Source: Myxococcaceae bacterium (GTDB lineage Bacteria; Myxococcota_A; UBA9160). From it: a DNA stretch of 39,529 bases. Shown here in pieces: positions 6,638-39,529 of the stretch. Where the stretch lies: contig CAJPFO010000098.1 in the NCBI GenBank assembly GCA_905339255.1, forward strand, positions 1 to 39,529. The letters run 5' to 3'. Under the pieces are notes generated by a model that worked only from the letters and a program-made list of their open reading frames with translations, did not search any database and was not told the origin of the DNA. Position 1 is the first letter of the stretch. Every line of letters starts with the position of its first letter. Both the position numbers and the translations under genes were made by a program.

Positions 6638-6665
6638 AACGGCAGGGTCAGAAAGGGTTTTCCTT

Positions 6666-20738: not shown

Positions 20739-20795
20739 CCCCGGCGCGCTGCCCCCCGACGCTTGCGCGCTCCCGCCGTGGCGAAGAGGGGGAGG

Positions 20796-23467: not shown

Positions 23468-25115
23468 TCGCGGTCGGGACGGGCGTCGCGCCGCCGTGCG
23501 CGGTTCGCAAGGGCTCCTCGAGGCCCTCGCGCTCTTCGCGGTCTATCTCGCGGCGCTCCTCGTCGTCTACGCTCCGGCGCTCCGCGGCCCGTTCTTTTCC
23601 GACGATCTCCACTACGTCGCGACCAATCCCTACGTCCACGCGCTCACGCTCGAGAACCTCCGACAGATCCTCGATCCAGCGAGCCCGGCGAGCGTCTTCG
23701 TCGTCAACTACACGCCCGTGCACCTGCTCCTCCACGCGCTCGCCTGGCGCGCCTTCGGCCCGGACGTCCTCGGCCATCATGTCCTCAATCTCGCGCTCCA
23801 TGCCGCGGGATCGGTGCTCCTCGTGGGCGTCTTCCGTGCATCGGGGATCGGGAGACTCGCTGCGCTCGCGGGAGGGACGCTCTTCGTCCTGCATCCGGCC
23901 AATGTCGAGGCGGTCGCGTGGATCTCGCAGACGAAGACGGTTTCGTGCTTCGTGCTCTCGATGGCGACACTCCTTCTCTTTCCGAAACGGCCCGGCCTCG
24001 CGACGCCCGCGTTCTTCCTCGCGCTTCTCGCGAAGCCGACGGGAGCCTTCCTGCTTCCCGTCGCGGGCATGCTCGCCTTCGTCCGGCTCTGGCGAGGCGC
24101 ACCGCCGTGGCGGCATCTCGTCTGGCTCGGTGTCTGGGTGGTGGGGTTCCTGGTCGTCTCGATCGCGCAGATCGAGGTGAACCGCCGCTCGGGCTCTCCC
24201 GACGCAGGGCTCGGCCCCGAGGGACTCGAGCGGATCCCGCTCGTGTTCGGAATCGCGCTTCGCTACCTCTGGATGTCCGCGACCTCGCTCGGGGTCTCGG
24301 CCTTCCACGAGCCGCCCAAGCACGCCTCGTTCGCGGATCCGGCCTTTCTCGCTTCGATCCCCATCCTCGCCGTGTGCGCGGTCCGCGCAGTCCGCTCGGT
24401 GATTGGCCGGCGCGAAGAGGCCGTGTACTGGGTCCTCGCCGCGTCTTCGTTCGCGCCGATCTCTCAGATCTTCCCGTTCCTCTACCCGATGGCCGATCGC
24501 TATCTCTACTTCATCCTCCCGGGTCTCATCGGCGTGGCTTTGTTCGTGCTGCGAGACGTCGAGGCGGCGCTACCCGCCGCGCTTCGCGAGCAGGCGACGC
24601 GAGCCGCCATCGCGCTCGCACTCGTTCTTTGCATCGTCTTCGCCGTGCGAGGCCACGCGCGTGCCGAGCTCTTCGGGAATCCGGCGCTCCTGCTCGTCGA
24701 TGCGGCACGCAACTACCCCGGCGGGGTTTCGGCGAACCTCCTCCGTGCGCGAGGGGCCGCGCGCGAAGGGGACGTGCGCGCGGCGATCGAGGCGCTCGAG
24801 GCCGCCCGTGCGCGCGGCTGGAACCGCTTCGAGCAACTCGAGAACGATCCGGTCTGGGATCCGATCCGATCCGATCCTCGCTTCCGGGGTCTGGTTCGGG
24901 AGATCGCGGCATGGTGGATCGAGCGTTCGGAGCAGCTCGAGAACCCGACGCAGATGGAACTCCGCGTTCGCGCGATCGCGCACCTCGCTCGCGGCGAGCG
25001 GGATCTCGCGATCGAGTCGCTCGAGGCCGCGCTCGCTCTGGGTGGGCCGATCGACGAACGGATCCGCGAAGAGCTCGCCGAACTCCGGCGCGGATCGCCT
25101 CAACCTTCTCGCTGA
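23451..25115 (+). CDS. TMTC-like GT-C membrane glycosyltransferase homologue, copy 2
   Basis: A 554-residue paralogue of the preceding gene with the same length and order. It has TM1, FFSDDLHYVATNPYVHALT (Asp51-Asp52), HPANVEAVAWISQTKT, a multi-helix core, FPFLYPMADRYLYFILPG and a soluble helical C-terminus with ENDPVWDPIRSDPRFRGLV. The last motif matches GDPGFAGVRNDPRFRALV in copy 1, so the duplication includes the C-terminal domain. The start is GTG 23451 with AAGGAG five bases upstream; the frame stays open earlier, but that part lies inside copy 1 and is not conserved. The stop lies inside the 3' end of the convergent spermidine-synthase fusion gene (16-base overlap), and no terminator is visible. 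Confidence 0.82.
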   Translation: MPRRADRGRDGRRAAVRGSQGLLEALALFAVYLAALLVVYAPALRGPFFSDDLHYVATNPYVHALTLENLRQILDPASPASVFVVNYTPVHLLLHALAWRAFGPDVLGHHVLNLALHAAGSVLLVGVFRASGIGRLAALAGGTLFVLHPANVEAVAWISQTKTVSCFVLSMATLLLFPKRPGLATPAFFLALLAKPTGAFLLPVAGMLAFVRLWRGAPPWRHLVWLGVWVVGFLVVSIAQIEVNRRSGSPDAGLGPEGLERIPLVFGIALRYLWMSATSLGVSAFHEPPKHASFADPAFLASIPILAVCAVRAVRSVIGRREEAVYWVLAASSFAPISQIFPFLYPMADRYLYFILPGLIGVALFVLRDVEAALPAALREQATRAAIALALVLCIVFAVRGHARAELFGNPALLLVDAARNYPGGVSANLLRARGAAREGDVRAAIEALEAARARGWNRFEQLENDPVWDPIRSDPRFRGLVREIAAWWIERSEQLENPTQMELRVRAIAHLARGERDLAIESLEAALALGGPIDERIREELAELRRGSPQPSR

Positions 25116-28100
25116 GCGGGGACCGCGTCCGAGCCGCGATCGGGATCGGGCCCGTCCCCGGCGAAGGGCGCGAGGCGCGCGCGGATCACTCTCGCCTCGT
25201 CCGTGAGCTCCGGAGGGAGGTCGAGCCGATCGAGGGTCTCGAGGATCAGGCGCGCACTCCCCTTGGTTCGCGTCCGCGGTGCACGCTCGATCGACGCCGC
25301 GAGCTCGGAGGCGAGGCCGAGCGCTGCACGCGAATGGCCCGCCTGCGCGGCGGCGCGGATCCGGAGGACGAGCCCGGGAACCGACCCGTCGAGCGCACTC
25401 GCGCGATCGAGGAGCGCCATCGCCTCGCGTGCATTCGCGGCGTCGCCTCGGTCGAGTCGCCACGCAGCTCGCAGGCGAAGCGCATCGGATACCGCCGGAT
25501 CACCCGCCGGGACCGCCGCGAGTCGCTCCTCGATCCTCTCGAGGTCGTCGAAGCGGCCCGCACTCTCGAGCTTCCATCCCTCGACGACTGCGGACTGCTC
25601 GCTCGAGAGCCCCGCGGCCAGCTCGAGCGCACGTTCATTTCCCTGTTCGAGGGCTCTGCGTCGGATCTGGACGAGCGCGAAGCGCGCCTCGGTCTGGTTC
25701 GGATCGAGCCGGAGCGCGTCGCTCAGGAGCGCGGCTGCGCGCTCGTCGCGCCCCGCGGCACGTTCAGCCAGCCCGAGCGCGGTCTGCCGCTCGGCGGAGT
25801 CCGGAATCGCCGCCGCGACGGCCTGTGCACGCTCGCCGAGCCCGGCGGCGAGGAGCCTGCGGACGTCGCGAAGTCGCGCTCCGGGAGGAGCTTCTCGGAC
25901 GAGGGGATCGAAGGGGCCGAGGACGCGGCTCGCCCCGGCGGCGCGAAGCGCATCGGTTCGCAGGGTGCTCGTGCTCCGTGTCTCGAAGAAGTTGTGGTCG
26001 TCGGTATTGACGAGCGCCCCCTTCGCGAACGCACGCGATCCCGGCGCATCGAGCACGCGAGCGCGAAGGACGTCGGAAGCGCCGGAGACGCCGATCTGCG
26101 CATAGGTCGCGGGGTCCTTCGCGATCGCGCGGTCGGCGGACGAGGCCAGATCGAGAGGCGCCTTCGACGCGAGGAAGAGGACGGCGTTCGCTTCGGGACG
26201 GTAGACCTCGACGAAAGGGAATACCTCGAGAAGCGTCGCGACCAGACTCCGGAGCAGGAATTCGTCGACGAAGGCGAGGCCGATCCACTGGACGAAGACC
26301 CCGTCTTCGGCCAAGCGATCCCGGGCGAGCTCGAAGAACTCCTTCGTATAGAGATGCGAGGCGCCTGCCGTCCATGGGTGCGAGGGCTGGGAGGTGATGG
26401 CGTCGAAGCGCGCGTCGGTGAGGACGAGCGAGCCCCGCGCGTCGTTCACGTGGAGTCGCACCCTCGGATCGGCGAGCGGATCGCGGCGTCTTTCTCCGGA
26501 GACGGCGCGGTTCGCGGCCACGACCTCGGGTTCGAGCTCGATCACGTCGATCTCCTCGACGCTTCGAGGAACGTCCTCGACTGCGAGGCCTCCGCCGAGG
26601 CCGACGACGACGAGCTGCTTCGCGTCGGGTCTCGCGAGCACGGGGAGCGCCGAGAGCCATCCGTTCACGGGATAGCGTCCCGCACGGTCTCCCGTCGCTC
26701 CGATCGATGCCTCCGGGAGACCGTTGGTCCGCAGATGCCAGGTGCCCGGATCGCCCGCCCGCTGCAGCAAGAGGACCGTCGCGCCGCGGCCGACGGCGAA
26801 GTAGGTGACCTCTCCCTCGGCGGGCTGCAGGTCGAACGGCGAGCTGCGGAGCAGGCGCCACGGCGTTGCGGGCGGAACGACGAGCGCGATCGCTGCGCCC
26901 ACGGCAGAAGTTGCGAGGAGCACCTTCGCCCTCGGTGCTGCGAACCACGATGCGATGCCCGCGAGCACGAGGTTCGCGAGCGCCGCCGCGAGCACCGAAC
27001 CCCGATAGCCGAGAAGCGGAACGACGAAGAAGCCCGCTCCGACGGCGCCTGCGATCGCGCCGACGGTGTTCCAAGAGTAGACGCGGGCGGTGGCCGCCGA
27101 GGCGTCGGCTGCGCTCCGAGCGAGGATCCGTACCGCGAACGGGAAGGTCGCTCCGATGCAGAGCGTCGAGGGCAAGAGGACCGATGCGGAGAGCGCCGCG
27201 TTCGCGCCGAGGCTTCCCTGCCAGCCGGCGCCGAGCGCGACGGCGAGCGCAGGCAGGGCATCGACCCCGGCGAATGCCACGAGCGAGAGCGCGGCCGTTC
27301 CGAGCTGTGCGATCGCGAAGCCGCGGGTTGCCCGCTCGCGCGTGGTGGCGAGCCGCGCTGCAATCGCACTTCCGATCGTGATGCCGACCAGGAAGCTCGC
27401 GAGCATGGTCGAGAAGGCGTAGACGCTTCCGCCGAGAACGTGCCCGAGAAGCCTCGTCCAGAGCACCTCGTAGGTGAACGAGCAGATTCCCGAGAGCAAG
27501 ATCACGGGAAGGATCCAACTGCCGGCCACCCGCCTGACCTCAGCGCTCGGAGCGGCCGCCTCGGCCACCGGCCCGGGTGGGAGGCGCGCGAGAAGCGTAG
27601 CCACCACGAAGACGAGCGCATTGATCGAGGCGCCGACGAGTACCGTCGCGTGCTGCCCGATCGCGGGCAGGAGGAAGAACGCCGCGCAGAGCGTGCCGCA
27701 GACGGCTCCTGCGGTGTTGGTGGCGTAGAGGAGTCCGATCCTCGCGCCGATCTCGCGCTCTTCGCGGACTGCGTGCCGTGCCAGCATCGGGAGCGTCGCC
27801 CCCATGAGCCCCGTCGGGACGAAGAGGATCAAGAAGCTCGAGAGCAGGTAGTAGACCGCCTGGAGGCCCCCTCCCGCTGTGGGGGGGGTGTCTGCGCCGC
27901 CGAAGAGCGCGACGTAGAGGTCGGTCGAGAGCCCGACGGCCACCGGGACGGCGAGCGCCGACGCGGCGATCCCGAGCTCGAGCAACCCGTAGGTGAGGAC
28001 GGGGCGACGGACTCGCTCGGCGAAGCGACCGGCAATCGCCGCACCGCCGGCAAGGCCGCCCATGTAGGCCGCGAGCACCGTCGCGACGGCGAGCTCCGAG

Positions 28101-28213
28101 GTCCCGAAGACGAACGCGAACTCGCGGGTCCAAACGGTCTGGTACAGGAGCGCTGCGAATCCCGAGAGCAGGAAGCACACCAGGACGAGCGTGAGGCGGA
28201 GGTCGGGTCTCAT
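25100..28213 (-). CDS. Membrane transporter-like / spermidine-synthase-fold / TPR-like fusion protein
   Basis: A 1037-residue protein in three parts. Residues 1-455 hold about 12 hydrophobic segments in two similar halves; FLLSGFAALLYQTVWTREFA resembles ILLSGICSFTYEVLWTRLLG. Residues 465-680 are a spermidine-synthase-like Rossmann fold with VVVGLGGGLAVEDV (535-548), IELEPEVV and SHPWTAGASHLYTKEFF (611-627). Residues 780-1037 are alanine-rich helical repeats, TPR-like. The catalytic aspartate motif of true aminopropyltransferases (DSSDP-like) is replaced by TSQPSHPW, so polyamine synthesis is doubtful. Such fused proteins are common but uncharacterised. The start is ATG 28211-28213 with GGAAGGA four bases upstream, overlapping the SGNH gene stop (ATGA). 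It is the last gene of a five-gene operon. Confidence 0.85.
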   Translation of the reverse strand: MRPDLRLTLVLVCFLLSGFAALLYQTVWTREFAFVFGTSELAVATVLAAYMGGLAGGAAIAGRFAERVRRPVLTYGLLELGIAASALAVPVAVGLSTDLYVALFGGADTPPTAGGGLQAVYYLLSSFLILFVPTGLMGATLPMLARHAVREEREIGARIGLLYATNTAGAVCGTLCAAFFLLPAIGQHATVLVGASINALVFVVATLLARLPPGPVAEAAAPSAEVRRVAGSWILPVILLSGICSFTYEVLWTRLLGHVLGGSVYAFSTMLASFLVGITIGSAIAARLATTRERATRGFAIAQLGTAALSLVAFAGVDALPALAVALGAGWQGSLGANAALSASVLLPSTLCIGATFPFAVRILARSAADASAATARVYSWNTVGAIAGAVGAGFFVVPLLGYRGSVLAAALANLVLAGIASWFAAPRAKVLLATSAVGAAIALVVPPATPWRLLRSSPFDLQPAEGEVTYFAVGRGATVLLLQRAGDPGTWHLRTNGLPEASIGATGDRAGRYPVNGWLSALPVLARPDAKQLVVVGLGGGLAVEDVPRSVEEIDVIELEPEVVAANRAVSGERRRDPLADPRVRLHVNDARGSLVLTDARFDAITSQPSHPWTAGASHLYTKEFFELARDRLAEDGVFVQWIGLAFVDEFLLRSLVATLLEVFPFVEVYRPEANAVLFLASKAPLDLASSADRAIAKDPATYAQIGVSGASDVLRARVLDAPGSRAFAKGALVNTDDHNFFETRSTSTLRTDALRAAGASRVLGPFDPLVREAPPGARLRDVRRLLAAGLGERAQAVAAAIPDSAERQTALGLAERAAGRDERAAALLSDALRLDPNQTEARFALVQIRRRALEQGNERALELAAGLSSEQSAVVEGWKLESAGRFDDLERIEERLAAVPAGDPAVSDALRLRAAWRLDRGDAANAREAMALLDRASALDGSVPGLVLRIRAAAQAGHSRAALGLASELAASIERAPRTRTKGSARLILETLDRLDLPPELTDEARVIRARLAPFAGDGPDPDRGSDAVPAQREG

Positions 28214-29418
28214 GGCGTCCTTCCGTCGCGAGCGGGGCGTCCGGCCGCGGCCCTTTCGACCATCGGCGCGAGTGCCTCGGCGATCAAGCGATGACCCACC
28301 GGGTTCGGATGGCACGCGTCGGGCAGTAGACCGAGGAGCTTCGGGTTCGCTGCGACCGCCTTCCCCCCGTAGCGCGCGACCACGGCCTCACGGTCGGCCT
28401 CGAAGGCCGGATCGCTCGCGATCCGCGGGATCGCGTCCTCGACGAGACGGGTCGCGTCGAGGAAGGGAGTCCCCGTTTCGTCGGCGACCCGCCGGAGCAC
28501 CTCGGCGACGGGGCCGCGCGCGCAGTTCGCGACGAGGACGATCCCGACGTTCGCGGTGCGCGCGGCAGCGACGGCCGCGCGCACGTTCGCCTCTGCCGCG
28601 GTGTAACCCGAGACGTTGCGGACATCGTCGGGAGGCTTCGCTCCACTTCGGAGCTTCGCGACCCAGGCATCGAGCGTCTCGTAGAAGCGGCTCCGGTGCA
28701 GGATCTCGAGGAGCGCTCCGACCCATCCTTCGCGCTGGACGTACGTCGCGCGATCTGCGGCTCCGGTCATTGCGCCGTCGTTCGCGATGTAGCTCCAGGT
28801 GACGACGTCCGGGGAGACCGCGAGCCCGTCACTCACGAGTGTCACCAGCCCCTGGAACGACGAATAGCCGGGGACCCCGAGATTCAGGACCTCCCAGCCG
28901 GCCTCGCGGCCACCGAGCGCCCGTTCGAGGCGCGCGGGATAGGCCTCTTCTTCCGCCACGCCCCAGCCGAAAGTCGAGGAGTCTCCGAGCGAGGCGACGC
29001 GGCGGACGCCGGCAGCGGGCCCCGATTCGAACGCCCGGGTGCGGTAGCCCTGCGGGCTGGTCCGAACCGACCAGCGCGTCCGTTCGCGCGCACTGGCCGG
29101 AGCGAAGACGTCGAGGAGCGAGACCTCGACGTCGGGGCGCAGACGATAGAAGCGATGGCGATCCCATTCGTAGAGGTCGTAGTAGCGGCCGAGAAAGCCC
29201 TCGGCCGCGAAGGCCTCGCGGTAGTCCTCTCGAGGTAGGAGCCAGCGCTCCGAGAGCCAGGCCGGGTTCGCCGTCGCCCCGCCGAGCCGCGGGCGGAGAT
29301 CGAAGACACGGCAGATGACCTCCGCCGTACCGAAGAAGAGCAAGAGCGCCAAAATGGCGAGCATCGCGTTGGCGACACCCGACTGTGTCTTTCGAGACGC
29401 CTCGATCTCGTGGCTCAC
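28210..29418 (-). CDS. Membrane-anchored SGNH/GDSL-family hydrolase
   Basis: A 402-residue protein with one N-terminal membrane helix (about 16-37) and a periplasmic SGNH domain. Block I is VASLGDSSTFGWG (Ser147 nucleophile), block II is NLGVPGYSSFQG, block III is probably SYIANDGA, and block V is DACHPNPVGH (Asp367, His370). Family members are esterases or acetyltransferases and deacetylases acting on glycans, lipids or acyl groups. In this operon a role in acylating or deacylating a surface glycan is a fair guess, not shown. The start is GTG 29416-29418, overlapping the upstream stop (GTGA); its own stop overlaps the next gene as ATGA. The frame is open further upstream only inside the STT3-like gene. 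Confidence 0.85.
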   Translation of the reverse strand: MSHEIEASRKTQSGVANAMLAILALLLFFGTAEVICRVFDLRPRLGGATANPAWLSERWLLPREDYREAFAAEGFLGRYYDLYEWDRHRFYRLRPDVEVSLLDVFAPASARERTRWSVRTSPQGYRTRAFESGPAAGVRRVASLGDSSTFGWGVAEEEAYPARLERALGGREAGWEVLNLGVPGYSSFQGLVTLVSDGLAVSPDVVTWSYIANDGAMTGAADRATYVQREGWVGALLEILHRSRFYETLDAWVAKLRSGAKPPDDVRNVSGYTAAEANVRAAVAAARTANVGIVLVANCARGPVAEVLRRVADETGTPFLDATRLVEDAIPRIASDPAFEADREAVVARYGGKAVAANPKLLGLLPDACHPNPVGHRLIAEALAPMVERAAAGRPARDGRTP

Positions 29419-31595
29419 GATGCGTCCTCGGCAACCGGGATCGTCGACCCCGAAAGTACCGCCTGCTCCGGAATCTCGACGTCGAGGATGCGGTCTCCGA
29501 CCGAGACCCGGAAGGGCCCCTCCGGCCGTGCGGGCGCCGTGGTTCGCGTGGCGTAGGGAATCCGGAGCCTCGCCATCCCGTTCGCATCCGCGACGGCCTC
29601 GGTCCTCCACGGAAAGCGGCGTCCCGCAGGAGTCGAGACGGTAACGCTCGCGCGAACCCGAGTTCCGGGCGGAGCCTTTGCCTCGAGGACGGCGCCCGGA
29701 ACGACCTCGAAGAGCTTGTAGGGAACTCCGCGCTCGCGGATCGGCCGGCCGAACTGCTCTCCGATCGGCCTTCCGCCCGCGGGTCCTTCGGTCACGAGGC
29801 GGAACCGACCGAAGGCCGGCCTTCCGGCGGCGGCGTTGCCGTCGCTCCGGTGCAGGCGATTCGTGAGCGTGGTCGGGACGCTTCCCCCGTAATCCGTCGT
29901 GACGACGTAGCGGCTCCGAAGGCGTCGCGCCTCCTCGACCGCGCGCTCTTCACTTTCGAGCGGGAAGAAAGCTCCCACGGCTGTGTAGTTCGCGGCTCCG
30001 ATGTAGGGGCCGAAGTTGTCGGCGGGGGTCGCTCGCCGCGCCGCGTAATGGAGGACGTGGCCGATCCCCGGATATGCGAGGATTCCGTACTCGGGTCTGC
30101 GGCCTGGATCGTCGAAGCCCTGCGTCTCGGGGGTGGCCTCGCGGACGAGCTCGGCGAAGCGCAGCATCGTGCCCTCGTAGCTCTCGAGCGCGCGGTCGCG
30201 CGGGGGCTCGAATCCGCCGAACGCGCGGAGGGTTTTGGCGGCTGCGCGCGCCTGAACGTCGATCACCGGTGAGAGCAGGAACATCGCGGCGATGACCGCG
30301 AGGGTTCGGGCTACCGCCGGGCGGGCGCAAACGATCCGATGCGACACGGCGCCGAGGAGCAGCGCGAAGCCCACGCTTGCTGCCGGTGCGTAGTCGTTTC
30401 CGAATCGCGCCTGCAGGAGTGCCAGGAATCCGAACGCCGCACACCACGCCGTGAGAACGAGAAGAGGCGCCCGGCGAGCCTCGGAGCGCAGCCCGAGCAC
30501 GAGCGTCCCGATCGGCACGAACGGGATGAGCGCGGCAAAGCCACCGAAGGTCGCGAGGCCGAGTGCGATCGAGAAGCCGTTCGCGAACGAAACGAGCGGA
30601 TACTGCTCGAGATTCTGGCCTTGGTACGCATCGGTCTTCGCGACGTAGTCCAGACCGAGCGAGAGCTCGGCGAGGAGCCCGCTCGAAGCGGCGAGCGCGA
30701 GAAGCAAGAATGCCGAGAGGCCCGCCGCACGAGCGGAGCGCGCGAACGCCGACCCTGCCGGCCGCGCGCGCTCCCAGGCGGCGAGGAGCGCTGCGACCAT
30801 CGCGACGATGCCGAGCAGCGCCGGATGCAGCCACGAGAGCTCGATCGCCGAGAAGGATCCGCCGACGGTCGTTTCGGAGAGTGGAAGGAAGGGCAGGACC
30901 AGCAGCGCCGAGAGCGCCGTGCTCCAGGCCTCGCCGACGAGCAGTGAGCACCGGCCCGAGAGCACGCCGGCGCCGAGCAGAGCGCCCTCGACGATCGCGA
31001 GGTAGACGAGGCTCCCCGGCCAGGTGAGGAGCATCGTGACGCGCGCCACGACCAGCCCGGCGAAGCTCTTCGCGGGCGAAGCATGGGGATCCGGGATCGT
31101 CGAGACCGCCGCGAGCGAGAGCGCGAGCAGCGTGGCGCCGAGGAGCGACTGTGCGGCGTGGTGGTCCGCATTGCCGACGTTCGAGTACAAGATGGTCGCC
31201 GGCAGCATCGCGAAGAGCAGCGCTGCTCCGACGCCGACCGCACGCGAGGCGACGAACTTTCCGGCGGCGTACACGGGAAGTACGCCGAGCGTGCCGAGGA
31301 CGACGGGCGCCCATGCGGCGACGCGCTCGAAGGTCGGCTGCGTATCTCCGAACAGGCGCGCGACGGCGCCGAGCACGAAGTCGTAGAGCGGTGGCCACGG
31401 CGCGTGGGCTCCGTCCGGGAAGTTCAGCAGTGGATCGAAGCCGAGGATCCGCGGAAAATTCTCGAACGTGAACCAGGCGCGGCGAGCGTGGTACCACGCA
31501 TCGCCGAGCGCGAAGACGACCGAGCCATCGCCCGGGAAGACCCGTTCCGCGCCCACGCTTCGCGTCGCGAAGGCGGCGAGCAGCGCCGTCGCCAC
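29415..31595 (-). CDS. STT3/AglB/PglB-like oligosaccharyltransferase homologue
   Basis: A protein of about 726 residues: a multi-helix GT-C membrane domain (to about 445) and a periplasmic C-terminal domain. STT3 features are ALGDAWYHARRA in the first outer loop (Asp32, compare DPWYH), GNADHHAAQ (about 141-149, compare archaeal ADHHVAE), TWPGSLVY, QNLEQYP (Glu330, compare the SVSE/TIxE loop), QARFGNDYAP (about 395-404) and YGILAYPGIGHVLHYAARRA followed by ADNFGPYIG. The last stretch aligns with WWDYGxxI...R..NDN, but the WWD triad is replaced by AYP, so acceptor-sequon recognition must differ or be lost. GTG 31593-31595 is the first canonical start; CTG 31629-31631, overlapping the upstream TGA, would add 12 residues ahead of TM1. 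The C-terminus ends in small beta-rich segments. Confidence 0.8.
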   Translation of the reverse strand: MATALLAAFATRSVGAERVFPGDGSVVFALGDAWYHARRAWFTFENFPRILGFDPLLNFPDGAHAPWPPLYDFVLGAVARLFGDTQPTFERVAAWAPVVLGTLGVLPVYAAGKFVASRAVGVGAALLFAMLPATILYSNVGNADHHAAQSLLGATLLALSLAAVSTIPDPHASPAKSFAGLVVARVTMLLTWPGSLVYLAIVEGALLGAGVLSGRCSLLVGEAWSTALSALLVLPFLPLSETTVGGSFSAIELSWLHPALLGIVAMVAALLAAWERARPAGSAFARSARAAGLSAFLLLALAASSGLLAELSLGLDYVAKTDAYQGQNLEQYPLVSFANGFSIALGLATFGGFAALIPFVPIGTLVLGLRSEARRAPLLVLTAWCAAFGFLALLQARFGNDYAPAASVGFALLLGAVSHRIVCARPAVARTLAVIAAMFLLSPVIDVQARAAAKTLRAFGGFEPPRDRALESYEGTMLRFAELVREATPETQGFDDPGRRPEYGILAYPGIGHVLHYAARRATPADNFGPYIGAANYTAVGAFFPLESEERAVEEARRLRSRYVVTTDYGGSVPTTLTNRLHRSDGNAAAGRPAFGRFRLVTEGPAGGRPIGEQFGRPIRERGVPYKLFEVVPGAVLEAKAPPGTRVRASVTVSTPAGRRFPWRTEAVADANGMARLRIPYATRTTAPARPEGPFRVSVGDRILDVEIPEQAVLSGSTIPVAEDAS

Positions 31596-31627
31596 GCCGG
31601 CGGCCGCCGTGCGGCGCGAGATCTCGT

Positions 31628-34099
31628 TCAGGAGGCGCTCGGTGCGGACTTCGCCGCCGTCCGCGCGGCCTCGAGCTCTCGTCTCGCCTCGGCCGCCTCG
31701 GAGAAGTTCGGGTCGAGATCGAGGGCACGCTCGAACGCGGAGGCGGCTTCCGCGTTCCGGCCGAGCGCCCGGAGTACGAGTCCGAGGTGGTGTTGGTACG
31801 CGGCTTGGACGGGCTGCCCCGACTCCTCGGCGAGCTGGATCGCGTAACGCGACTGCTGGAGCGCGGGTTCGAGGAGCCCCTTCCGGAGGTAGACGTATGC
31901 GAGGGTGTCCGCAGCGTTCGGATCGGTCGAGAGCGCGCGCTGCGCCTCCTGCGCGAGCGTGAGCGCCCGCTCCAGGTTGCTGCCTTCCTGCGCGAGGAGG
32001 TATGCGAGGTCGTTCTTTGCACCCGCGAGGTCGGGGCGTTCGGCGAGTGCTCGTTCGAGCGTATCGCGAGTCTTCGAAGTCTCTCCTCGCGAGAGATAGA
32101 TCCGGGCGAGGAGGAGCCTCGCTCCCGGCGAGAGCGCTCCCGTTCGATCGGCTTCCTCGAGGGATGCGACCGCGAGGTCGAGCTTGTCTTGCGCAGCGTA
32201 GATCTGCAGCAGGAGCTCGAGCGCGCCAGGGAGGTTCGGAGCCACCTCGAAGAGGCGATTGATGTCCTTCTCGGCTTCCTCGTACCGGCGATCGGCGGCG
32301 AGAAGCCGCGCGCGGGCTAGGAGCGCTGCGGCCGGAGGTTCTCCGCCATCGATGATCGCGTCGAGTCGCTCGCGCGCCTCTCGTGCCCGACCGTTCGACA
32401 CGTCGAGACGCGTGATCGCGGCAATCAGGCCCCCATGCCTCGGCGCGCGCGAGAGCGCGGTCTCGAGGTGCTTGCGTGCGGCGTCGGGGGATTTCGCTCC
32501 CTCGCGCGCGGCGAACTCGATCGAACCGAGAATCGGCGGCTCCGGGAGCGCGAGCGCCCCTTCGAGAACCTGCCGGGCGACGATCGGTCGACCGCCCTCG
32601 TAGAGTGCGCTTGCGAGCAGCACCAGATCGCGCGGCGGCAACTCGACCCCCGCCTGCAGGAGCTGGAACCAGGTCTGCGCGGCGAGCGTCCAGTCGCGCG
32701 AGGCGTGGTGGATCCGCGCCTTCAGCATCGCCGTCTCCGGAGCACGCCCCCCCGACAGCGCGAGGCTTCGATCCGCTGCGGCGACCGCGCTCGGAAGGTT
32801 TCCGAGCTGGAATTCGGCGAGGGCGAGCATCCGATACGCCTCGGCGCTCTCGCGCTTCTGGACGAGATCTCGAAGCAGCGGCGCTGCATCGACATAGCGG
32901 CTCTCGACGGTCGCGAGGCGTGCCCGGGCGAGCTGCGTGCTCGGATCCTTCGGGAACTCCTTCTCGAGCGCAGCGATCGTCGCGAGCGCCTCGTCCCGTT
33001 TCGCGAGCTGGAGCTGGACGCCCGCGAGGAGCTCGAGCGCTCGGGCACGCTCCTCGCCCTTCGCAGCGAGCGCCGCGAGACCCTGCTCGGCCTCTTCGCC
33101 GCGGCCGTTCTGGAAGAGCCACGCCGCGCGGCGCCAGTGCGCATCGAGGTCGCTCGGGCGCTTTCCGAGAAGATCCTTCCAGACGGTGTCGCCAGAGCCG
33201 TCTTTCTGCTCGCGCGCGGTCGCGAGATCCGCCCACGCGTCGAGATTCGAGTCATCGGCCGCAACGAGTTGTTCGAGGGCGTAGATCCCGAACTCGGAAT
33301 CCTTCGCGATGCGTGCGTAGTCGAGGCCCACGGCCGCCGCCTCGCGACGCTCCCCCGCGCTGCCCTTCTGGTTCGCGATCTCGATCGCGCTCCGGAAGGC
33401 CGCGCGTGCCTCGTCAGGATGTTCTCCCCAGAAGAGGTAGGTCCGACCGATGTTGGCTCGGACGACGTGATTGCCGCCGTAGAGCTCGTCGGACTTCCGG
33501 AAAGCGGCGAGTGCCTGCTCGAAGAGCTCGTCGGGCGGCGTCTTCTTGGCAAGACGTGCCTCGCGGATCTGTGCCTGGCGGACGATCCCGATCTGCATCG
33601 GGTAGAGCGGGTCGTTCGGGGCGAGCTCGACCGCAGTCATCGCGGCAGCCAGCGCTTCTTGGGTGTTGCCTTGATGGAGAGCCACCTCCATGCGCCGAAG
33701 GTGCGCCATCGGGTTGCCGGGCTCGCGTTCGAGCACCGCGCTCACCAGCTCGAGGGCGCGGGTGGGATCCCCGCCCATCACGAGCTTCGCTTCGTCGAGC
33801 GTCGCGTCGGTTCGCGTCGGATCGAGCCGCTGTGTCTCGCGGAGGTAGAAGATTGCGTTCGCGTAATCCTGCTGTGCGACCAGCGCATTTGCGATTGCGT
33901 AGTTCGTGTCCGCGTTTCGCGGTTCGAGCTTGAGCGCGTTGCGGAGCTCGAGGAGTGCCTCGCGCGGCCTGCCCTGTTCCTGGTAGGTCTTCGCGTTCCC
34001 GAGATGCTCGAGCATCTTCTCGTGGTCCGAGCGGCAGCCACCGAGCGAGAGGCCGAGAGCGACGATCGCCACGGCTCGACGCAACGTCGAAGGACGCAT
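31628..34099 (-). CDS. TPR-repeat lipoprotein (PrsT-like)
   Basis: An 823-residue lipoprotein. A signal peptide ends in LSLGGC (lipobox), then tetratricopeptide repeats run almost without break to the C-terminus. Clear repeats include YQEQGRPREALLELRNALKL, ALVAQQDYANAIFYL, YLSRGETSKTRDTLERAL and ALGRNAEAASAFERALDLD. Length and architecture resemble the TPR lipoprotein PrsT of PEP-CTERM/exosortase gene clusters, although such repeats are weak evidence of orthology. It probably acts as a scaffold at the outer membrane. The start is ATG 34097-34099 with GAGGAG five bases upstream; ATG 34120 is less likely because it would put 7 residues before the signal. It lies 45 bases after the first TPR lipoprotein gene and directly abuts the STT3-like gene. 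Confidence 0.88.
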   Translation of the reverse strand: MRPSTLRRAVAIVALGLSLGGCRSDHEKMLEHLGNAKTYQEQGRPREALLELRNALKLEPRNADTNYAIANALVAQQDYANAIFYLRETQRLDPTRTDATLDEAKLVMGGDPTRALELVSAVLEREPGNPMAHLRRMEVALHQGNTQEALAAAMTAVELAPNDPLYPMQIGIVRQAQIREARLAKKTPPDELFEQALAAFRKSDELYGGNHVVRANIGRTYLFWGEHPDEARAAFRSAIEIANQKGSAGERREAAAVGLDYARIAKDSEFGIYALEQLVAADDSNLDAWADLATAREQKDGSGDTVWKDLLGKRPSDLDAHWRRAAWLFQNGRGEEAEQGLAALAAKGEERARALELLAGVQLQLAKRDEALATIAALEKEFPKDPSTQLARARLATVESRYVDAAPLLRDLVQKRESAEAYRMLALAEFQLGNLPSAVAAADRSLALSGGRAPETAMLKARIHHASRDWTLAAQTWFQLLQAGVELPPRDLVLLASALYEGGRPIVARQVLEGALALPEPPILGSIEFAAREGAKSPDAARKHLETALSRAPRHGGLIAAITRLDVSNGRAREARERLDAIIDGGEPPAAALLARARLLAADRRYEEAEKDINRLFEVAPNLPGALELLLQIYAAQDKLDLAVASLEEADRTGALSPGARLLLARIYLSRGETSKTRDTLERALAERPDLAGAKNDLAYLLAQEGSNLERALTLAQEAQRALSTDPNAADTLAYVYLRKGLLEPALQQSRYAIQLAEESGQPVQAAYQHHLGLVLRALGRNAEAASAFERALDLDPNFSEAAEARRELEAARTAAKSAPSAS

Positions 34100-34144
34100 C
34101 AGGACTCCTCGCGGCGCCATCGGGAGGCCGCGTATCCGGGAAGG

Positions 34145-36592
34145 CTATCCCTGCGGCTGCTCGAGCCGCGCGATCTCCTGCTTCGCGGCCTCGGCGTCCG
34201 GGAAGGGGCCGAGCGCGAGCGCCTCGCGCAGTGTCGCCATCGCCCTGTCCCGATCGCCACTTTGCGCCAGTGCGAGGCCGAGGTGATAGCGGATCGTCGG
34301 ATCCTTGGGCCGCAGCCGGAGCGCGCGCTCGAAGTCCGCGATCGCCGCGGCCGCGTCCCCACGCTTCATGCGCACGAATCCGAGCGTGTCGAGAACGTCG
34401 GCCGACGGGTTGATCTTCGAGGCGCGCTCGGCCATCGAAAGCGCCTGGTCGAGATCGCGCTCGCCGCTCGCGAGAATCCAGGCGAGATCGTTGAGCGCGT
34501 CGGCGTTCGACGGCGCGATCGCGAGAACGTCGCGAAGGCGCTGCTCTGCGCCTGCGGCATCTCCCCTTCCGAGGACGATCTGCGCCGCGCGATAACGCGC
34601 GTCGACGTTCTTCGGATCGAGGGCCCCCGCGCGCTCGACGATCTCGAGCGCCGTCTGCGGGTTCCCCGCCTCGACCTCGAGGGATGCCAATCCGATGAGC
34701 GGCCGCGCGGACGCGGGATCCGCTGCGGCAGCCTTCTCGAAGCTCGCCCTCGCGTCGGCCTTGCGTCCGAGGCGTGCGAGCGCCACTCCGCGAAGCTCGA
34801 GGAGCGAGGCCTTCTCGGGGCTCGCAGCGAGCGCCGCGTCGATCCGGGCGAGCGCCGATTCGCCGCGGCCGAGCACGAGCAGATCCTCGACCAGCGTGCG
34901 GAGCGCGTCCTCGTTCGCAGGATCCGAGAGGTCGAGCTTCGCCGACTCGATCGCCACGACGGCCTGCGCGGGGCCCTTTGCGCCCCGCTCGACGACGGCG
35001 CGCTCGACGGCCACCGCGGCCGCAGCACCCGGGACGGTCGCCATGTTGTCGAGCGTGGCGCGTGCCGCGTCGAGTTCTCCTTCGCGGGCCGCCGCCCGCA
35101 CGGCGATCCGGAATGCGGGAAGGCTCGACGGATCCCGGTGCGCGACGTGCTTCATCGCGTAGTTCGCCGCGGGGCCGTTCTCGCCGCGCTCGAGGTAGAT
35201 CGCTGCGAGTGCGAGCGACGCATCGGTCGCCGACGCGTCCGTCCGAACGGCCTCGCGGAACTCCAAGATGGCGCGGTCGCTGTCGCCGGCCTCGCGTGCC
35301 GCCGCGCCCGCCATGTAACGCGCGGCCGGGTTGTTCGGCCAGCGGCGGAGCCCGGTATCGAACGCCTCGAGCGCGCCCTTCGCATCGCCCTTCGCGAGCA
35401 GGATGCGCCCGCGCAGGATCTCACGGTAGGCAGGTTCCTGGATCGCGCCGAGCACTTCTTCGGCCTGGTCGAGCCGGCCGAGGTCCGCGTAGAGGTCGCC
35501 CTGCGCGAAGCGGAGGTTGTCGTCGCCTCCGCCGGCGAGCTGTACGGCGCGCTCGAGCGACGCGGCCGCCTCGTCGCGGCGGCCGTGACGACGCTGGAAA
35601 TCGGCGAGCACCTGCCACGCGCCCGGCGTTCCGAACGATTCTGCTGCCTCGACGAGGATCGCCTGCGCCTCGTCGATCTTTCCCGAGCGCGCGACGCGCT
35701 CAGCGAGCATGACGCGGAACGAGAGGTTCTCGGGCGCCTCCGCGACGGCCTTTCGCCAGAGCTCGGTACCCTTCTCGGGTCGTGCGGTCCTGTCGTAGAA
35801 CTGTGTCGCGAGCTGGAGTGCGAGGGGTTCGGTCGAATGGGTCGCGAGGCACTCGAGATACTGCGCCTCGGCGCGAGCCGCGTCCTTGCGACCGGTGTCG
35901 TAGAAGTTCGCGAGGGCGAGGCAGCCGCGCGCGGCGATCCCCGGGTCCCCGCTCTTCGCTCCGAGTTCCTTCACGTCTTGGTAGGTCTTCTCGGCGTCGT
36001 CGAGGCGGCCCGTTTCAGCGAGGATCGAACCGAGCAGGACGGCGGCCTGGTAGTCGTCGGGCTGCATTTCGCGAAGGCGCGTCGCATCCGCGAGCGCTTC
36101 GTCCTTGCTCCCTGCCGCGACGTACGCATGCGTGCGCATGCGGAGCGCAGCGACGTTTCCGGGGTCGGTTTCGAGAACCCGCGTCGAGACCCGGATCGCG
36201 TCGTCGGGCGCGTTCACCGAGAGGAAGGCCGAGGCGAGCAGCAGGCCCGAGGGAACCGCAAACTCGGGCGACTTCGACGACTTCTCGAGCGGCCAGACCG
36301 CGAGGCTCGGCTGCCCGGTTTGCACCAGCGCGACGCCGAGGCGATGGTTCGCCTCCGCGAGATCGGGGGACTCTTCGAGGATGCTGCGGAGGGGCTCGAT
36401 CGATTCGTTGAATTGACCGGCGTCCTGGAGCGTCCGCACCTCCTCGAGTCGCGAGTCGAGGCTCGATCCGCAGCCGAGTGCGAGGATCGAGACGGCGAGC
36501 GCGCAAGCGAGCCCTGCGAGCCGAATGCGGAGCGGGAGATCTCTTCCGCCGCCGTCCTGGAAGCGACGCGAAAGCGTGGGGATTCCCTGCAT
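34145..36592 (-). CDS. TPR-repeat lipoprotein, first gene of the operon
   Basis: An 815-residue predicted lipoprotein. After a basic N-terminus (LSRRFQDGGGRDLPLRIR) there is a hydrophobic stretch ending ILALGCGSS, a usable but not ideal lipobox. About twenty TPR-like repeats follow, for example LQDAGQFNESIEPLRSILEE, LAETGRLDDAEKTYQDVKE, LARLGRKADARASFEKAAA and RGDAAAAIADFERALRLRP. It is a paralogue in architecture of the next gene. I choose ATG 36590-36592, with GGAGGAA 9 bases upstream; ATG 36608-36610 overlaps that ribosome-binding site and would add six residues. It opens the five-gene minus-strand operon and is divergent from the sulfatase-fold gene across 66 bases. A role as outer-membrane scaffold for surface-protein or polysaccharide assembly is inference. 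Confidence 0.87.
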   Translation of the reverse strand: MQGIPTLSRRFQDGGGRDLPLRIRLAGLACALAVSILALGCGSSLDSRLEEVRTLQDAGQFNESIEPLRSILEESPDLAEANHRLGVALVQTGQPSLAVWPLEKSSKSPEFAVPSGLLLASAFLSVNAPDDAIRVSTRVLETDPGNVAALRMRTHAYVAAGSKDEALADATRLREMQPDDYQAAVLLGSILAETGRLDDAEKTYQDVKELGAKSGDPGIAARGCLALANFYDTGRKDAARAEAQYLECLATHSTEPLALQLATQFYDRTARPEKGTELWRKAVAEAPENLSFRVMLAERVARSGKIDEAQAILVEAAESFGTPGAWQVLADFQRRHGRRDEAAASLERAVQLAGGGDDNLRFAQGDLYADLGRLDQAEEVLGAIQEPAYREILRGRILLAKGDAKGALEAFDTGLRRWPNNPAARYMAGAAAREAGDSDRAILEFREAVRTDASATDASLALAAIYLERGENGPAANYAMKHVAHRDPSSLPAFRIAVRAAAREGELDAARATLDNMATVPGAAAAVAVERAVVERGAKGPAQAVVAIESAKLDLSDPANEDALRTLVEDLLVLGRGESALARIDAALAASPEKASLLELRGVALARLGRKADARASFEKAAAADPASARPLIGLASLEVEAGNPQTALEIVERAGALDPKNVDARYRAAQIVLGRGDAAGAEQRLRDVLAIAPSNADALNDLAWILASGERDLDQALSMAERASKINPSADVLDTLGFVRMKRGDAAAAIADFERALRLRPKDPTIRYHLGLALAQSGDRDRAMATLREALALGPFPDAEAAKQEIARLEQPQG

Positions 36593-36658
36593 GGGATTCG
36601 GTTCCTCCATGGGCCCGGAGAACGCGGCAGTATACGCATCGGCAGAGGAGCTTCCAGC
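36593..36658. promoter_or_regulatory. Divergent promoter region with palindromic -10 candidate
   Basis: These 66 bases must hold the promoters of both divergent transcription units. The most AT-rich spot is AGTATACG (36629-36636), which reads TATACG on the plus strand and TATACT on the minus strand (4 and 5 matches to TATAAT). A weak minus-strand -35 (TGGAAG) lies 16 bases upstream of TATACT. No -35 is convincing for the plus strand. Confidence 0.35.
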
Positions 36659-39145
36659 GTGACCGGAACTTCGCAGAGCGAGCCCCGAGGCCGGGCTCCG
36701 GGGTTTCCCCGGCGCCGCGGTAGGGGTTCGCAGCGGCTTCTCGCGCTGCTCGCCGGGATTGCCGCCGCGCTCATGAGCGCCTGCTCCGCTCCTCCTCCGG
36801 AGCGGATCGTCCTCGTCACGATCGACACGCTGCGTGCGGACCACGTCGGTGCCTTCGGCAGCGAGCGGGCGAAAACCGCCACGCTCGATGCGCTCGCGCG
36901 TGAAGGAGTCCGCTTCGACGCGGCCTTCTCGCCGGTTCCCTTGACGCTGCCCTCGCATACCACCCTCATGACGGCACTCGACCCTCCGCGACACGGTGTC
37001 CGGCACAATTCGATCTTCCAGGTCCCGGTCGAGATTCCGACGCTCGCCGAGCGCATGAAGGAATCCGGCCGCGCGACCGCGGCGTTCGTGGGCGCGCTCG
37101 TGCTCGAATCGCGCTTCGGGCTCGATCGGGGCTTCGGGACCTATGACGATCGGATGGGCGAGAGGCGCTCGGGATTCGTGGGCTTCGCGGAGAGGCCGGC
37201 CGATCGGGTGGTCGATGCGGCGCTCGGCTGGCTCGAGAAGGCTCCCGAGCGCTTTTTCCTCTGGGTCCATTTCTATGACCCGCACGCCCTCTACGAGCCT
37301 CCGCTCGGCTATGCGCTGAGCTTCGCGAGCTCCCCTTACGACGGCGAGATCGCCTTTACCGACGCGCAGCTCGGACGACTGCTGCGAGCGATCGACGAGC
37401 GCTTCGGCGCGCAGGGGACGCTCGTCGCCGTCACTTCCGACCACGGCGAGAGCCTGGGCGAGCACCTAGAGCCCACCCACTCCTACTCGATCTACGACGC
37501 CACGCAGCGGATCCCGTTGATCCTGCGCGGAGCCGGCCTGCCGGCGGGAAGATCCATCTCCGAGCTCGTGAGGCTCTCCGACGTGGCGCCGACGCTCCTC
37601 GAGCTCGCGGAGCTGCCGCCGCTCGACGAGGTGGACGGGAGGAGTCTCCTGCCCCTCGTCCGGGGAGATCGCGACGAGCCGCGGCAGGCCTACCTCGAAA
37701 CACTCGCCACCGAGCTCGATCTCGGCTGGGCGCCGCTGTTCGGCCTCCGCGACCAGCGCTCGAAGCTGATCCGCGCCCCGCGCCCCGAGCTCTACGATCT
37801 CGAATCCGATCCTCGCGAGCTCGAGAACCGTGCCGGAGCGGAGACCGGACGTGTCGCTTCGCTCGACGCTTCGCTCGCCGAGCTTCTCGCGAGAGCGCGG
37901 CCCCTCGAAGCTCCGATCGAACTCGGTGCCGGCGAGCGGGCGAGGCTCGAGAGCCTCGGCTACGTCGTCCCGACGGCGGGCGCCGTCGAGAAGGCAGCGG
38001 CCTCGACGGGGCAGGGGCCGGATCCGAAGGACGAGATTCCGCTGCTCGCGACGGTCGCGAGGGCCTCGATGCTCGTCGCGAAGGGGAGGCCCGGGGAGGC
38101 CTTCGCCCTGCTCGCCGCAGCGGGGGATCGGGGGCCCTATCTCCTCTCGGTACGAGCCAACGCAGCGCTCGCGGCCGAGCGCCCTGCCGACGCCGAGCGA
38201 GACGCGCGCCTCGCGCTCGCGACGAGTCCCGACCGGGGCGATCTGCATCAGATCCTCGCCGAGTCCCTGCTGCGCCAGGGCCGTCTCGACGAGGCGCACA
38301 GCGCCTTCGAGCGCGCCCGGGAGGCCGAGCCCCGGCACGCGCGCCCGCTGCTCGGCCTCGGCCAGGTCGCGGAGGCGCTTCGAGATCCGGGGAGCGCGGA
38401 GCAGCACTACCGCGCCGCGCTCGACGCGTCGAGAATGAGCGAGGAGGTTCCGGAGGGGGCCTGGCGGCTCGCGTCGCTGCTCCTCGAGCAGGGGCGCGGG
38501 GACGAGGCCGACTCGCTCCTCGTGTCATTGCCGGGGGCCGTCGTCGAGACGGAGGCCGCCGCCGTGCGGATTGCTCGAGCCGAGCTCGGGGCGGGAAGGC
38601 ACGATGCGGCGCTCGCGCGCCTCGAGGCCGCCCGCGAGCGGCATCCGGAGTCGGCTCCCATCCTGCTCCTGTTCGGACACGTTCTCGAGCGCAAGGGACG
38701 TGGGGACGAGGCGCGCGCCGCCCGAGAGCGCGCGCTCGAGCTCGCTCCGGGGGCAGCAGCCGCGCGGAACGACCTCGCCTGGAGTCTCGCGCGGCAAGGA
38801 CGGGATCTCGACCGGGCGCTCGCCCTCGCCGAGGCGGCCCATGGCGCGGCCCCCGGAAGCGTGGAGTTCGCCGACACCCTCGCGCTCGTGCGGCTCCGCC
38901 GCGGGGAGGCCGCCGCGGCGCTCACGCTACTCGATGCGACGGCCCCGGCGGCGAGCGGGGACGCCAAACGAAGCCTCGGCCTCCGCAGGGCCGAGGCACT
39001 CCTTGCTCTCGGAAGGCGCGCCGCTGCGCGAGAGGCCTTCGAGAAGGCCGTGGGCCCCGGGGATCTGCCCTCTCCCCCTCCCGACTGGGCGGAGGGGGCG
39101 TCGGAGCTCGCGCGCAGGCTCGGCCTGAGCGCCCCCAGCCCCTGA
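36659..39145 (+). CDS. Sulfatase-fold (alkaline phosphatase superfamily) / TPR fusion lipoprotein
   Basis: An 828-residue protein. A basic N-terminus and hydrophobic segment end at SAC-SAP (Cys42), a probable lipoprotein signal. Residues 48-395 form the sulfatase fold, with metal-binding TIDTLRADHVG (Asp56), LTLPSHTTLMTAL (95-107), FYDPHALYEPP, TSDHGESLGEH (259-269) and ELYDLESDPRELEN. From about 440 to the end there are TPR-like repeats (LLRQGRLDEAHSAFERAREA). The residue where sulfatases carry a Cys or Ser converted to formylglycine is Thr96, and the C/S-x-P-x-R motif is absent, so it may be a phosphohydrolase or phospho-transferase. The start is GTG 36659 with AGAGGAG 8 bases upstream. It is divergent from the TPR/STT3 operon. 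Confidence 0.87.
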   Translation: MTGTSQSEPRGRAPGFPRRRGRGSQRLLALLAGIAAALMSACSAPPPERIVLVTIDTLRADHVGAFGSERAKTATLDALAREGVRFDAAFSPVPLTLPSHTTLMTALDPPRHGVRHNSIFQVPVEIPTLAERMKESGRATAAFVGALVLESRFGLDRGFGTYDDRMGERRSGFVGFAERPADRVVDAALGWLEKAPERFFLWVHFYDPHALYEPPLGYALSFASSPYDGEIAFTDAQLGRLLRAIDERFGAQGTLVAVTSDHGESLGEHLEPTHSYSIYDATQRIPLILRGAGLPAGRSISELVRLSDVAPTLLELAELPPLDEVDGRSLLPLVRGDRDEPRQAYLETLATELDLGWAPLFGLRDQRSKLIRAPRPELYDLESDPRELENRAGAETGRVASLDASLAELLARARPLEAPIELGAGERARLESLGYVVPTAGAVEKAAASTGQGPDPKDEIPLLATVARASMLVAKGRPGEAFALLAAAGDRGPYLLSVRANAALAAERPADAERDARLALATSPDRGDLHQILAESLLRQGRLDEAHSAFERAREAEPRHARPLLGLGQVAEALRDPGSAEQHYRAALDASRMSEEVPEGAWRLASLLLEQGRGDEADSLLVSLPGAVVETEAAAVRIARAELGAGRHDAALARLEAARERHPESAPILLLFGHVLERKGRGDEARAARERALELAPGAAAARNDLAWSLARQGRDLDRALALAEAAHGAAPGSVEFADTLALVRLRRGEAAAALTLLDATAPAASGDAKRSLGLRRAEALLALGRRAAAREAFEKAVGPGDLPSPPPDWAEGASELARRLGLSAPSP

Positions 39146-39149
39146 CGCC

Positions 39150-39185
39150 CCCACGCCGGCTCGTGTGCCGCCCACGTGGGATTTT
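39150..39185 (+). terminator. Putative terminator hairpin after the sulfatase-fold gene
   Basis: CCCACG (39150-39155) pairs with CGTGGG (39175-39180), and an inner stem CGGC/GCCG (39157-39160 with 39167-39170) closes a six-base loop. ATTTT follows immediately, 5 bases being a short U-tract. It starts four bases past the TGA stop. Confidence 0.5.
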
Positions 39186-39213
39186 CGCGACGCATCTCCG
39201 ACTCGACTGCGCA

Positions 39214-39240
39214 TCCCCCCGCGTGGGGGGAAGGGGTTTT
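39214..39240 (+). terminator. Second hairpin, possible backup terminator
   Basis: TCCCCCC (39214-39220) pairs perfectly with GGGGGGA (39225-39231) around a GCGT loop. AGGGG and TTTT (39237-39240) follow, so the U-tract is displaced by five bases from the stem. Confidence 0.4.
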
Positions 39241-39359
39241 CTCCTGGGAAGGAAAATTCTTTCCCGAGCTGCCGGCGTAGCCTCGGCCACCTCCGTGATC
39301 ACCGCTATGCAATCTAATGAAAACAGGGGGTTACAGGATCTCGTCCAAGTGGCCCGGGC

Positions 39360-39375
39360 TGGCACCCCCCTTGCA
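39360..39375 (+). promoter_or_regulatory. Sigma-54 (RpoN) promoter, -24/-12 element
   Basis: TGGCAC (39360-39365), five bases, then TTGCA (39371-39375) match the consensus TGGCAC-N5-TTGCA at every conserved position, with the GG and GC doublets at the required spacing. Transcription should begin near 39386, about 88 bases before the ATG at 39474. Sigma-54 promoters need an AAA+ activator bound upstream; no activator gene is in the window. Confidence 0.8.
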
Positions 39376-39473
39376 GTAGGGGGAGCGCGGTTGGTTGAAT
39401 GCGCCGGGGTCTCGGCAGGGTGCCGCAAACGGATCCTGGCTTCGTTGGACGGATGAGCAAAGGAGTTGGATCC

Positions 39474-39529
39474 ATGCGCAAGTTGTTCGGTCTTCTCGCT
39501 GCGGCCGCCGTGATGGTCGCGGGTCAGGC
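39474..39529 (+). CDS. Secreted protein of unknown type (N-terminal signal peptide only; cut by window end)
   Basis: Only the first 18 codons are visible: MRKLFGLLAAAAVMVAGQ. The two positive residues followed by a hydrophobic alanine-rich core are a Sec signal peptide. The start is ATG 39474 with AGGAG 8 bases upstream, a strong ribosome-binding site. Expression appears to be under a sigma-54 promoter. Small exported proteins with such signals are typical of PEP-CTERM-like, pilin-like or other surface proteins, but the C-terminus that would decide lies beyond the window. No function can be given. Confidence 0.7.
   Translation, partial: MRKLFGLLAAAAVMVAGQ

Follow-up and report, generated by a model that had tools for sequence, protein, structure and literature searches.

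The right-hand third of contig CAJPFO010000098.1 of a Myxococcaceae bacterium (assembly GCA_905339255.1) probably constitutes an XrtA PEP-CTERM cargo-and-accessory locus extended by a glycan transferase of the AglB/STT3 family. The window analysed is this entire contig (C98; 39,529 bases), part of a draft genome of 4.28 Mb whose nearest named relative in a public genome scan, which returned one close relative, was a Deltaproteobacteria metagenome-assembled genome. Homology, synteny and promoter evidence support the prediction that cargo and accessory genes of the PEP-CTERM system are joined here by an STT3-like transferase gene, and that this enzyme would act on the cargo is a reasonable inference. 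The parts of the XrtA/PEP-CTERM system are already known; what is added is an STT3-family transferase in a PEP-CTERM locus, recurring across the order.

Organisation of the locus and the PEP-CTERM system of the genome

The locus includes a minus-strand operon of five genes, encoding two tetratricopeptide repeat (TPR) lipoproteins (TPR1 and TPR2), the STT3-like enzyme, an SGNH hydrolase and a fused MFS/spermidine-synthase-fold protein with a TPR tail (MFS/SpdSyn). The operon is divergent from a plus-strand gene for a sulfatase-fold/TPR lipoprotein (SulfTPR), beyond which lie a sigma-54-type site and a truncated gene with a signal peptide (Table 1). All the genes named here by a first-pass annotation made from the sequence are present, with coding-like composition and with Pfam and NCBIfam matches that agree with the named folds. 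The description of the operon as tightly overlapped holds for two of the four junctions, STT3/SGNH and SGNH/MFS, which overlap by 4 bases each (GTGA and ATGA, respectively); TPR1 and TPR2 are separated by 24 bases, the TPR2/STT3 junction hinges on the uncertain STT3 start, and all four junctions are close. TPR matches were confirmed in four products, that of the MFS/SpdSyn protein being weak (E 7e-5).

Two exosortases are encoded in the genome. XrtA, on contig C61 outside the window (TIGR03109, 225.2 bits; cut-off 208), lies in an exopolysaccharide (EPS) locus together with an XrtA-type chain-length protein, an ATPase, an export protein, EpsI and a PrsR-like sigma-54 response regulator; among these accessory proteins only EpsI scored over its cut-off. 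PEP-CTERM proteins over the cut-off number 57 in the genome. The first-pass annotation gave no known system for the locus; the XrtA/PEP-CTERM system applies, TPR lipoproteins and sigma-54-driven cargo being known parts of it (PMC1569441; PMC9850573). The 2006 study (PMC1569441) had predicted both the PrsT lipoprotein and the regulation of PEP-CTERM genes by sigma-54, and had linked PEP-CTERM systems to EPS; pepA and prsT affect how EPS is bound and how flocs form (PMC9850573). The XrtA locus, the 57 PEP-CTERM proteins, the probable cargo gene and the proximity of cargo to STT3-like genes in relatives together point to a PEP-CTERM locus of the prsT-pepA type.

The best NCBIfam match of both TPR lipoproteins is PrsT of the XrtA/PEP-CTERM system (TIGR02917). 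Their identification as true PrsT was rejected, the scores (268 and 165 bits) lying under the cut-off of 312.2. Another protein of the genome passes this cut-off (G000:C16:5691-8018; 323.6 bits), and TPR1 and TPR2 are therefore extra PrsT-like paralogues.

A PEP-CTERM cargo protein is the likeliest product of the truncated gene at 39474, as its N-terminal match, its promoter and its synteny indicate. The sequence TGGCACCCCCCTTGC sits 114 bases 5' of its ATG. The motif TGGCA[CT]N5TTGC was found upstream of 5 of 35 PEP-CTERM genes of the same genome and of none of 146 other sampled genes (Fisher P 2e-4); the sigma-54 core is shared with a paralogous promoter on C300, and the bases around the core differ. 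When the 18-amino-acid N terminus was compared with 1040 proteins (background mean 2.9, standard deviation 8.3), the top matches were three members of a single PEP-CTERM family (L136, score 60; L065/L066, 50; L112, 46), including one from the same genome (C300) and one whose gene in the sister genome G078 is immediately divergent from TPR1. The place of the gene corresponds to that of cargo genes in relatives. Since the window is the whole contig, this last gene cannot be extended; C300 and C90 were considered as its continuation and rejected, both carrying paralogues with different upstream sequence. The cargo paralogue on C90 (G000:C90:21095-21792; L137, L138) is split in two frames, has the tail SPELGTLLL without a PEP motif and looks like a decayed copy.

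A predicted AglB-type transferase with a changed sequon motif

The STT3-like protein scored 270 bits against TIGR04154, the archaeosortase-associated STT3 (cut-off 450), and contains an AglB_L1 domain according to Pfam (PF18079, E 4e-20); a profile built from 26 homologues matched A. fulgidus AglB (3waj; E 3e-57), the match extending over the membrane part as well as the C-terminal part. Four residues are invariant among the 26 homologues (D56, D168, H170, E354) and align to AglB Asp47 (GND), Asp161, His163 and Glu360, of which the first three are metal ligands and the last is the TIXE Glu (PMC8342417). The Asp of the first DXD motif (D56), the second DXD/DHH motif (D168, H170) and the Glu at the TIXE/SVSE position of external loop 5 (EL5; E354) are all retained; the TIXE residues other than E354 are not conserved in the homologue alignment.

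In AglB, WWDYG, together with DK/MI, binds the sequon Ser/Thr (PMC8342417). The window protein has YPGIG in its place, and WWD appears in no aligned row of the STT3-like proteins. Within clade A, to which the window sequence belongs, Trp and Asp of the motif are both lost in nearly all rows; the second Trp of the motif is mostly retained in a second clade and in distant relatives within the phylum. Since the catalytic and metal residues are kept and WWDYG is lost, the enzyme probably remains active in glycan transfer, its acceptor being altered, and the loss of the sequon-reading motif makes a classical N-X-S/T site an improbable acceptor.

Conservation across the order

Among 80 genomes of the order, STT3-like genes were present in 57, exosortases in 74 and PEP-CTERM proteins in 77. 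STT3-like genes were found in 57 of the 74 genomes with an exosortase and in none of the 6 genomes without one (P 3e-4; P 0.013 once the smallest genomes were left out; both values uncorrected for relatedness). Several families of the window recur near STT3-like genes: TPR2 in 13 genomes (5 GTDB families); the multi-transmembrane proteins GTC_A/B in 12 genomes (3 families); MFS/SpdSyn in 7 genomes (4 families); TPR1 in 5 genomes (4 families), and in more after neighbouring stretches were added; and SGNH in 4 genomes (3 families). Module parts thus recur in several GTDB families of the order, and the lack of conservation outside close strains that, according to the first-pass annotation, would have refuted its proposal was not observed.

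The arrangement is also repeated in detail. In G015, TPR2-STT3-SGNH-MFS faces GTC_B-MTase2 as in the window; in G014, STT3-TPR2-TPR1, with STT3 after TPR2, is divergent from a sulfatase-fold/TPR gene followed by a PEP-CTERM gene; and in G009, TPR2-TPR1 is divergent from a sulfatase-fold/TPR gene followed by four PEP-CTERM genes, so that the order TPR1-SulfTPR-PEP of the window is found again in G009 and G014. The sister genome G078 has a pair of PEP-CTERM genes immediately divergent from TPR1-STT3-SGNH. TPR1 and/or TPR2 adjoin PEP-CTERM and/or sulfatase-fold genes in thirteen genomes (G007, G009, G014, G038, G046, G047, G048, G050, G051, G053, G054, G072, G074). In eight genomes of family f10 a PEP-CTERM gene is divergent from TPR1, and a gene for a membrane-anchored sulfatase-fold protein follows in most of those where the contig reaches.

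The cargo family to which the truncated gene is most similar (MRKLFG-type) was counted in the genomes having an STT3-like gene: 20 of its 83 listed genes, spread over 13 contigs, have an STT3-like gene within 20 kb, compared with 1.2 expected from random placement. The excess holds for this one cargo family only.

In f10, the STT3-like gene is flanked by genes for AglJ-like polyprenyl-phosphate glycosyltransferases, a UDP-GlcNAc 3-dehydrogenase-like protein and a DegT aminotransferase, and in some genomes also for an acetyltransferase. These sugar genes, found as WbpB/WbpE(/WbpD)-like and AglJ-like genes at seven loci (L069, L074, L081, L089, L096, L097, L102), would amount to a Wbp-like gene set that makes a diacetamido sugar. 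In type IX secretion the linking sugar of the cargo comes from the Wbp pathway, and a similar compound has been speculated for exosortase systems (PMC7468200). Wbp-like genes are absent from the right-hand locus of the window. STT3-like paralogues in four genomes (L075, L088, L098, L101) adjoin HisF/HisH-like and aldolase-like genes, named by eye, and so have a conserved neighbourhood of another kind.

Sulfatase-fold, SGNH and MFS/SpdSyn proteins

SulfTPR carries a TxPSH-type motif (TLPSH) with Thr at the nucleophile position. Thr occupies this position in 38 of the 39 homologues shown and the remaining one is truncated, so that every row covering the site has Thr. The C/S-x-P-S-R motif of formylglycine sulfatases, with its Cys/Ser nucleophile, is not present, and the reading of SulfTPR as a true sulfatase, as first annotated, was rejected on account of the Thr. 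Within the sulfatase fold, a Thr nucleophile is typical of phosphoethanolamine/phosphoglycerol transferases and of phosphodiesterases. Membrane-anchored sulfatase-fold proteins with a Thr nucleophile and the sequence SWTKASMASLWTG repeatedly adjoin PEP-CTERM genes (L203, L206-L210, L212-L215, L219, L221), and it is possible that they form a PEP-CTERM-associated enzyme family in their own right.

In the SGNH protein, the sequences GDSS, GVPGYSS, ND and DxCHPN are conserved (5 aligned), blocks I, II, III and V being intact with the Ser and the Asp-His. The MFS/SpdSyn protein retains the nucleotide-binding GGG; QPSHPW stands at what we take to be the place of the catalytic loop, and the spermidine-synthase Asp is presumably missing there, judging by comparison with SpeE.

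Table 1 Features of the right-hand part of the window.
Feature	Position	Strand	Basis
SAM (S-adenosylmethionine) methyltransferase (MTase2)	20763..21803	+	PF13489; homologue at matching place in G015 (L068)
Multi-transmembrane protein A (GTC_A), tandem paralogue of B	21800..23467	+	NF047558; shares the cluster of B
Multi-transmembrane protein B (GTC_B), TPR end domain, GT-C-like by resemblance	23496..25115	+	NF047558
Fused MFS/spermidine-synthase-fold protein, weak TPR tail	25100..28213	-	NF037959, 128 bits (cut-off 40)
Membrane-anchored SGNH/GDSL hydrolase	28210..29418	-	PF13472, E 8e-14
STT3/AglB-like membrane glycosyltransferase	29415..31595; start maybe up to about 70 bases upstream	-	TIGR04154, 3waj, PF18079
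YPGIG codons, aligned to AglB WWDYG	30060..30074	-	3waj profile and homologue alignments
TPR2, second PrsT-like TPR lipoprotein	31628..34120	-	TIGR02917, 165 bits (under cut-off)
TPR1, PrsT-like TPR lipoprotein	34145..36592	-	TIGR02917, 268 bits (cut-off 312.2)
Sulfatase/alkaline-phosphatase-fold and TPR lipoprotein, GTG start	36659..39145	+	PF00884, E 4e-37, and TPR
Sigma-54 (-24/-12) promoter-like site TGGCACCCCCCTTGC	39360..39374	+	Exact core
Truncated secreted protein MRKLFGLLAAAAVMVAGQ..., N terminus of probable PEP-CTERM cargo	39474..39529	+	Cut by the contig end

The two tandem multi-transmembrane proteins next to the operon (21800-25115) carry a DD motif close to the N terminus as well as TPR end domains, and resemble GT-C enzymes of the TMTC type; Pfam returned no glycosyltransferase domain for them. 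Elsewhere in the window (6157-7782), a gene for a phasin-like protein (weak match) adjoins an ACP (acyl carrier protein) synthase III-like gene.

Discussion

The system described by Haft et al. in 2006 (PMC1569441), with XrtA (EpsH), PrsK, PrsR and PrsT, shares with this genome an exosortase A locus, numerous PEP-CTERM proteins whose genes can be preceded by sigma-54 sites, and TPR lipoproteins; its description, as excerpted, names no oligosaccharyltransferase-type enzyme, and to the TPR pair the window adds the STT3-like, Thr-type sulfatase-fold/TPR, SGNH and MFS/SpdSyn proteins. In Aquincola tertiaricarbonis (Xia et al. 2023, PMC9850573), an RpoN-dependent PEP-CTERM gene likewise lies by a TPR lipoprotein gene (pepA-prsT), whereas the window has two TPR lipoproteins, divergent transcription, an intervening sulfatase-fold gene and the STT3-like operon. 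With the archaeosortase A-associated STT3/AglB (TIGR04154; A. fulgidus 3waj, 5gmy, 7e9s) the window enzyme has in common the profile fold, two DXD-type motifs, the Glu at the TIXE position, AglB_L1 and co-occurrence with a sortase-like C-terminal processing system; it differs in being bacterial, in scoring under the cut-off, in having YPGIG for WWDYG and in its PEP-CTERM-system neighbours. The Wbp/Vim linking-sugar pathway of type IX secretion (PMC7468200) resembles the f10 relatives in the Wbp-type sugar genes by surface-protein genes, unlike the right-hand locus of the window, where such genes are missing. Joint mention of STT3 and PEP-CTERM, or of PEP-CTERM and oligosaccharyl, was not found in the open literature searched, outside which most subscription papers lie.

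We propose the following working. A PrsR-like regulator and sigma-54 RNA polymerase would activate the cargo gene at 39474, from the site observed there. The signal peptide would then export the cargo, the PEP-CTERM helix would hold its C terminus and XrtA, encoded on C61, would cut it, as proposed for the PEP-CTERM family generally; the C terminus of the present cargo lies beyond the contig. At the membrane, the two PrsT-like lipoproteins and the TPR-tailed phosphatase/sulfatase-fold lipoprotein may hold or sort the cargo. A PEP-CTERM accessory locus working in outline up to this point is very likely. The STT3-like enzyme, whose active-site residues are observed, would next move a polyprenyl-linked glycan to an acceptor, of which the likeliest would be the cargo or a glycan conjugated to it; that the cargo itself is the direct acceptor is plausible, leaning slightly towards doubt. 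Finally, the SGNH hydrolase and the sulfatase-fold enzyme with its Thr may act on acyl or phospho groups of the product, trimming or attaching them. The first-pass interpretation is thus supported in its exported-protein handling and its conservation; it lacked the XrtA/PEP-CTERM context, the absence of a sulfatase Cys/Ser and the absence of WWDYG, and the guidance by TPR scaffolds that it suggested is a possibility.

Several observations weigh against this reading. The exosortase gene is on a different contig from the STT3-like operon, PrsK was sought across the genome and none scored over the cut-off, and TPR1 and TPR2 fall short of the PrsT cut-off that the C16 protein exceeds. No PEP-CTERM tail is visible in the local proteins, because the contig ends before the C terminus of the cargo. 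The glycan and the acceptor of the STT3-like enzyme are predicted from the genes. PEP-CTERM genes in general are not clearly denser near STT3-like genes than in the genome background, and many clade-A paralogues (up to 5 STT3-like genes per genome) stand in loci without TPR or PEP-CTERM genes, so the STT3-like family is not dedicated to PEP-CTERM.

These paralogues outside cargo loci also speak for the main rival, in which the STT3-like enzyme and its partners serve to assemble or decorate exopolysaccharide or a lipid-linked glycan, the PEP-CTERM neighbours being there through the tie between exosortase and EPS and the proteins not being acceptors. The tie of PEP-CTERM to EPS (PMC1569441), the part that pepA and prsT have in EPS binding and in the formation of flocs (PMC9850573), the disappearance of the peptide-binding WWDYG and the sugar-nucleotide and GT2 genes adjoining the STT3-like gene in f10 are all consistent with it. 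The enzyme nevertheless retains the EL5 Glu and the AglB-type C-terminal domains, both of which serve peptide transfer in AglB, and the link of a single cargo family to the locus is far above chance; we regard EPS decoration as a realistic but rather doubtful explanation. Classical N-glycosylation of cargo N-X-S/T sites through a diverged sequon pocket appears improbable. It could draw on the 65 N-X-S/T sites in linked cargo, compared with 42.5 expected from shuffled sequences (unlinked PEP-CTERM proteins: 55 and 49.8), and on the one motif Trp retained in most homologues outside clade A, but the Ser/Thr-binding WWDYG (PMC8342417) is lost in clade A, the reversed motif is also in excess, although smaller, and the linked cargo proteins are mutually related. 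The excess was thus judged a weak, non-independent sign of N-glycosylation, and it lends the proposed working little in its turn. A neighbourhood of unrelated envelope genes inherited together without functional unity is less probable still: synteny is partly vertical, GlmS, UvrD and MTase1 preceding the locus in G072 as in the window, but the same partners recur in varied order and place in f1, f5, f6, f8, f10 and f11, in G009, G072:C67 and G074 they also surround STT3-like genes of another clade, and genes of the operon overlap.

If the PEP-CTERM locus with an added STT3-like transferase is taken a step further, it might be a bacterial counterpart of the archaeosortase-AglB axis, in which a sortase-like protease works on the same PEP-CTERM cargo as an STT3 whose acceptor pocket is rebuilt, the glycan (made by Wbp/AglJ-like enzymes in one family) being the exosortase-substrate group or a non-sequon modification; we consider this unlikely. 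The compound conjugated by exosortases has been called unidentified (PMC7468200), and the locus supplies concrete candidates for the processing of PEP-CTERM proteins after exosortase cleavage: an STT3-like transferase that retains its catalytic residues and is without the sequon motif, a lipoprotein with a Thr-type phospho/sulfo-transfer fold, and the sugar-nucleotide set of the relatives. The locus suggests that PEP-CTERM proteins may be sugar-coated in an unusual way; if true, its STT3 enzyme would be a naturally occurring case of a changed acceptor, which could help both to understand glycosylation and to engineer it.

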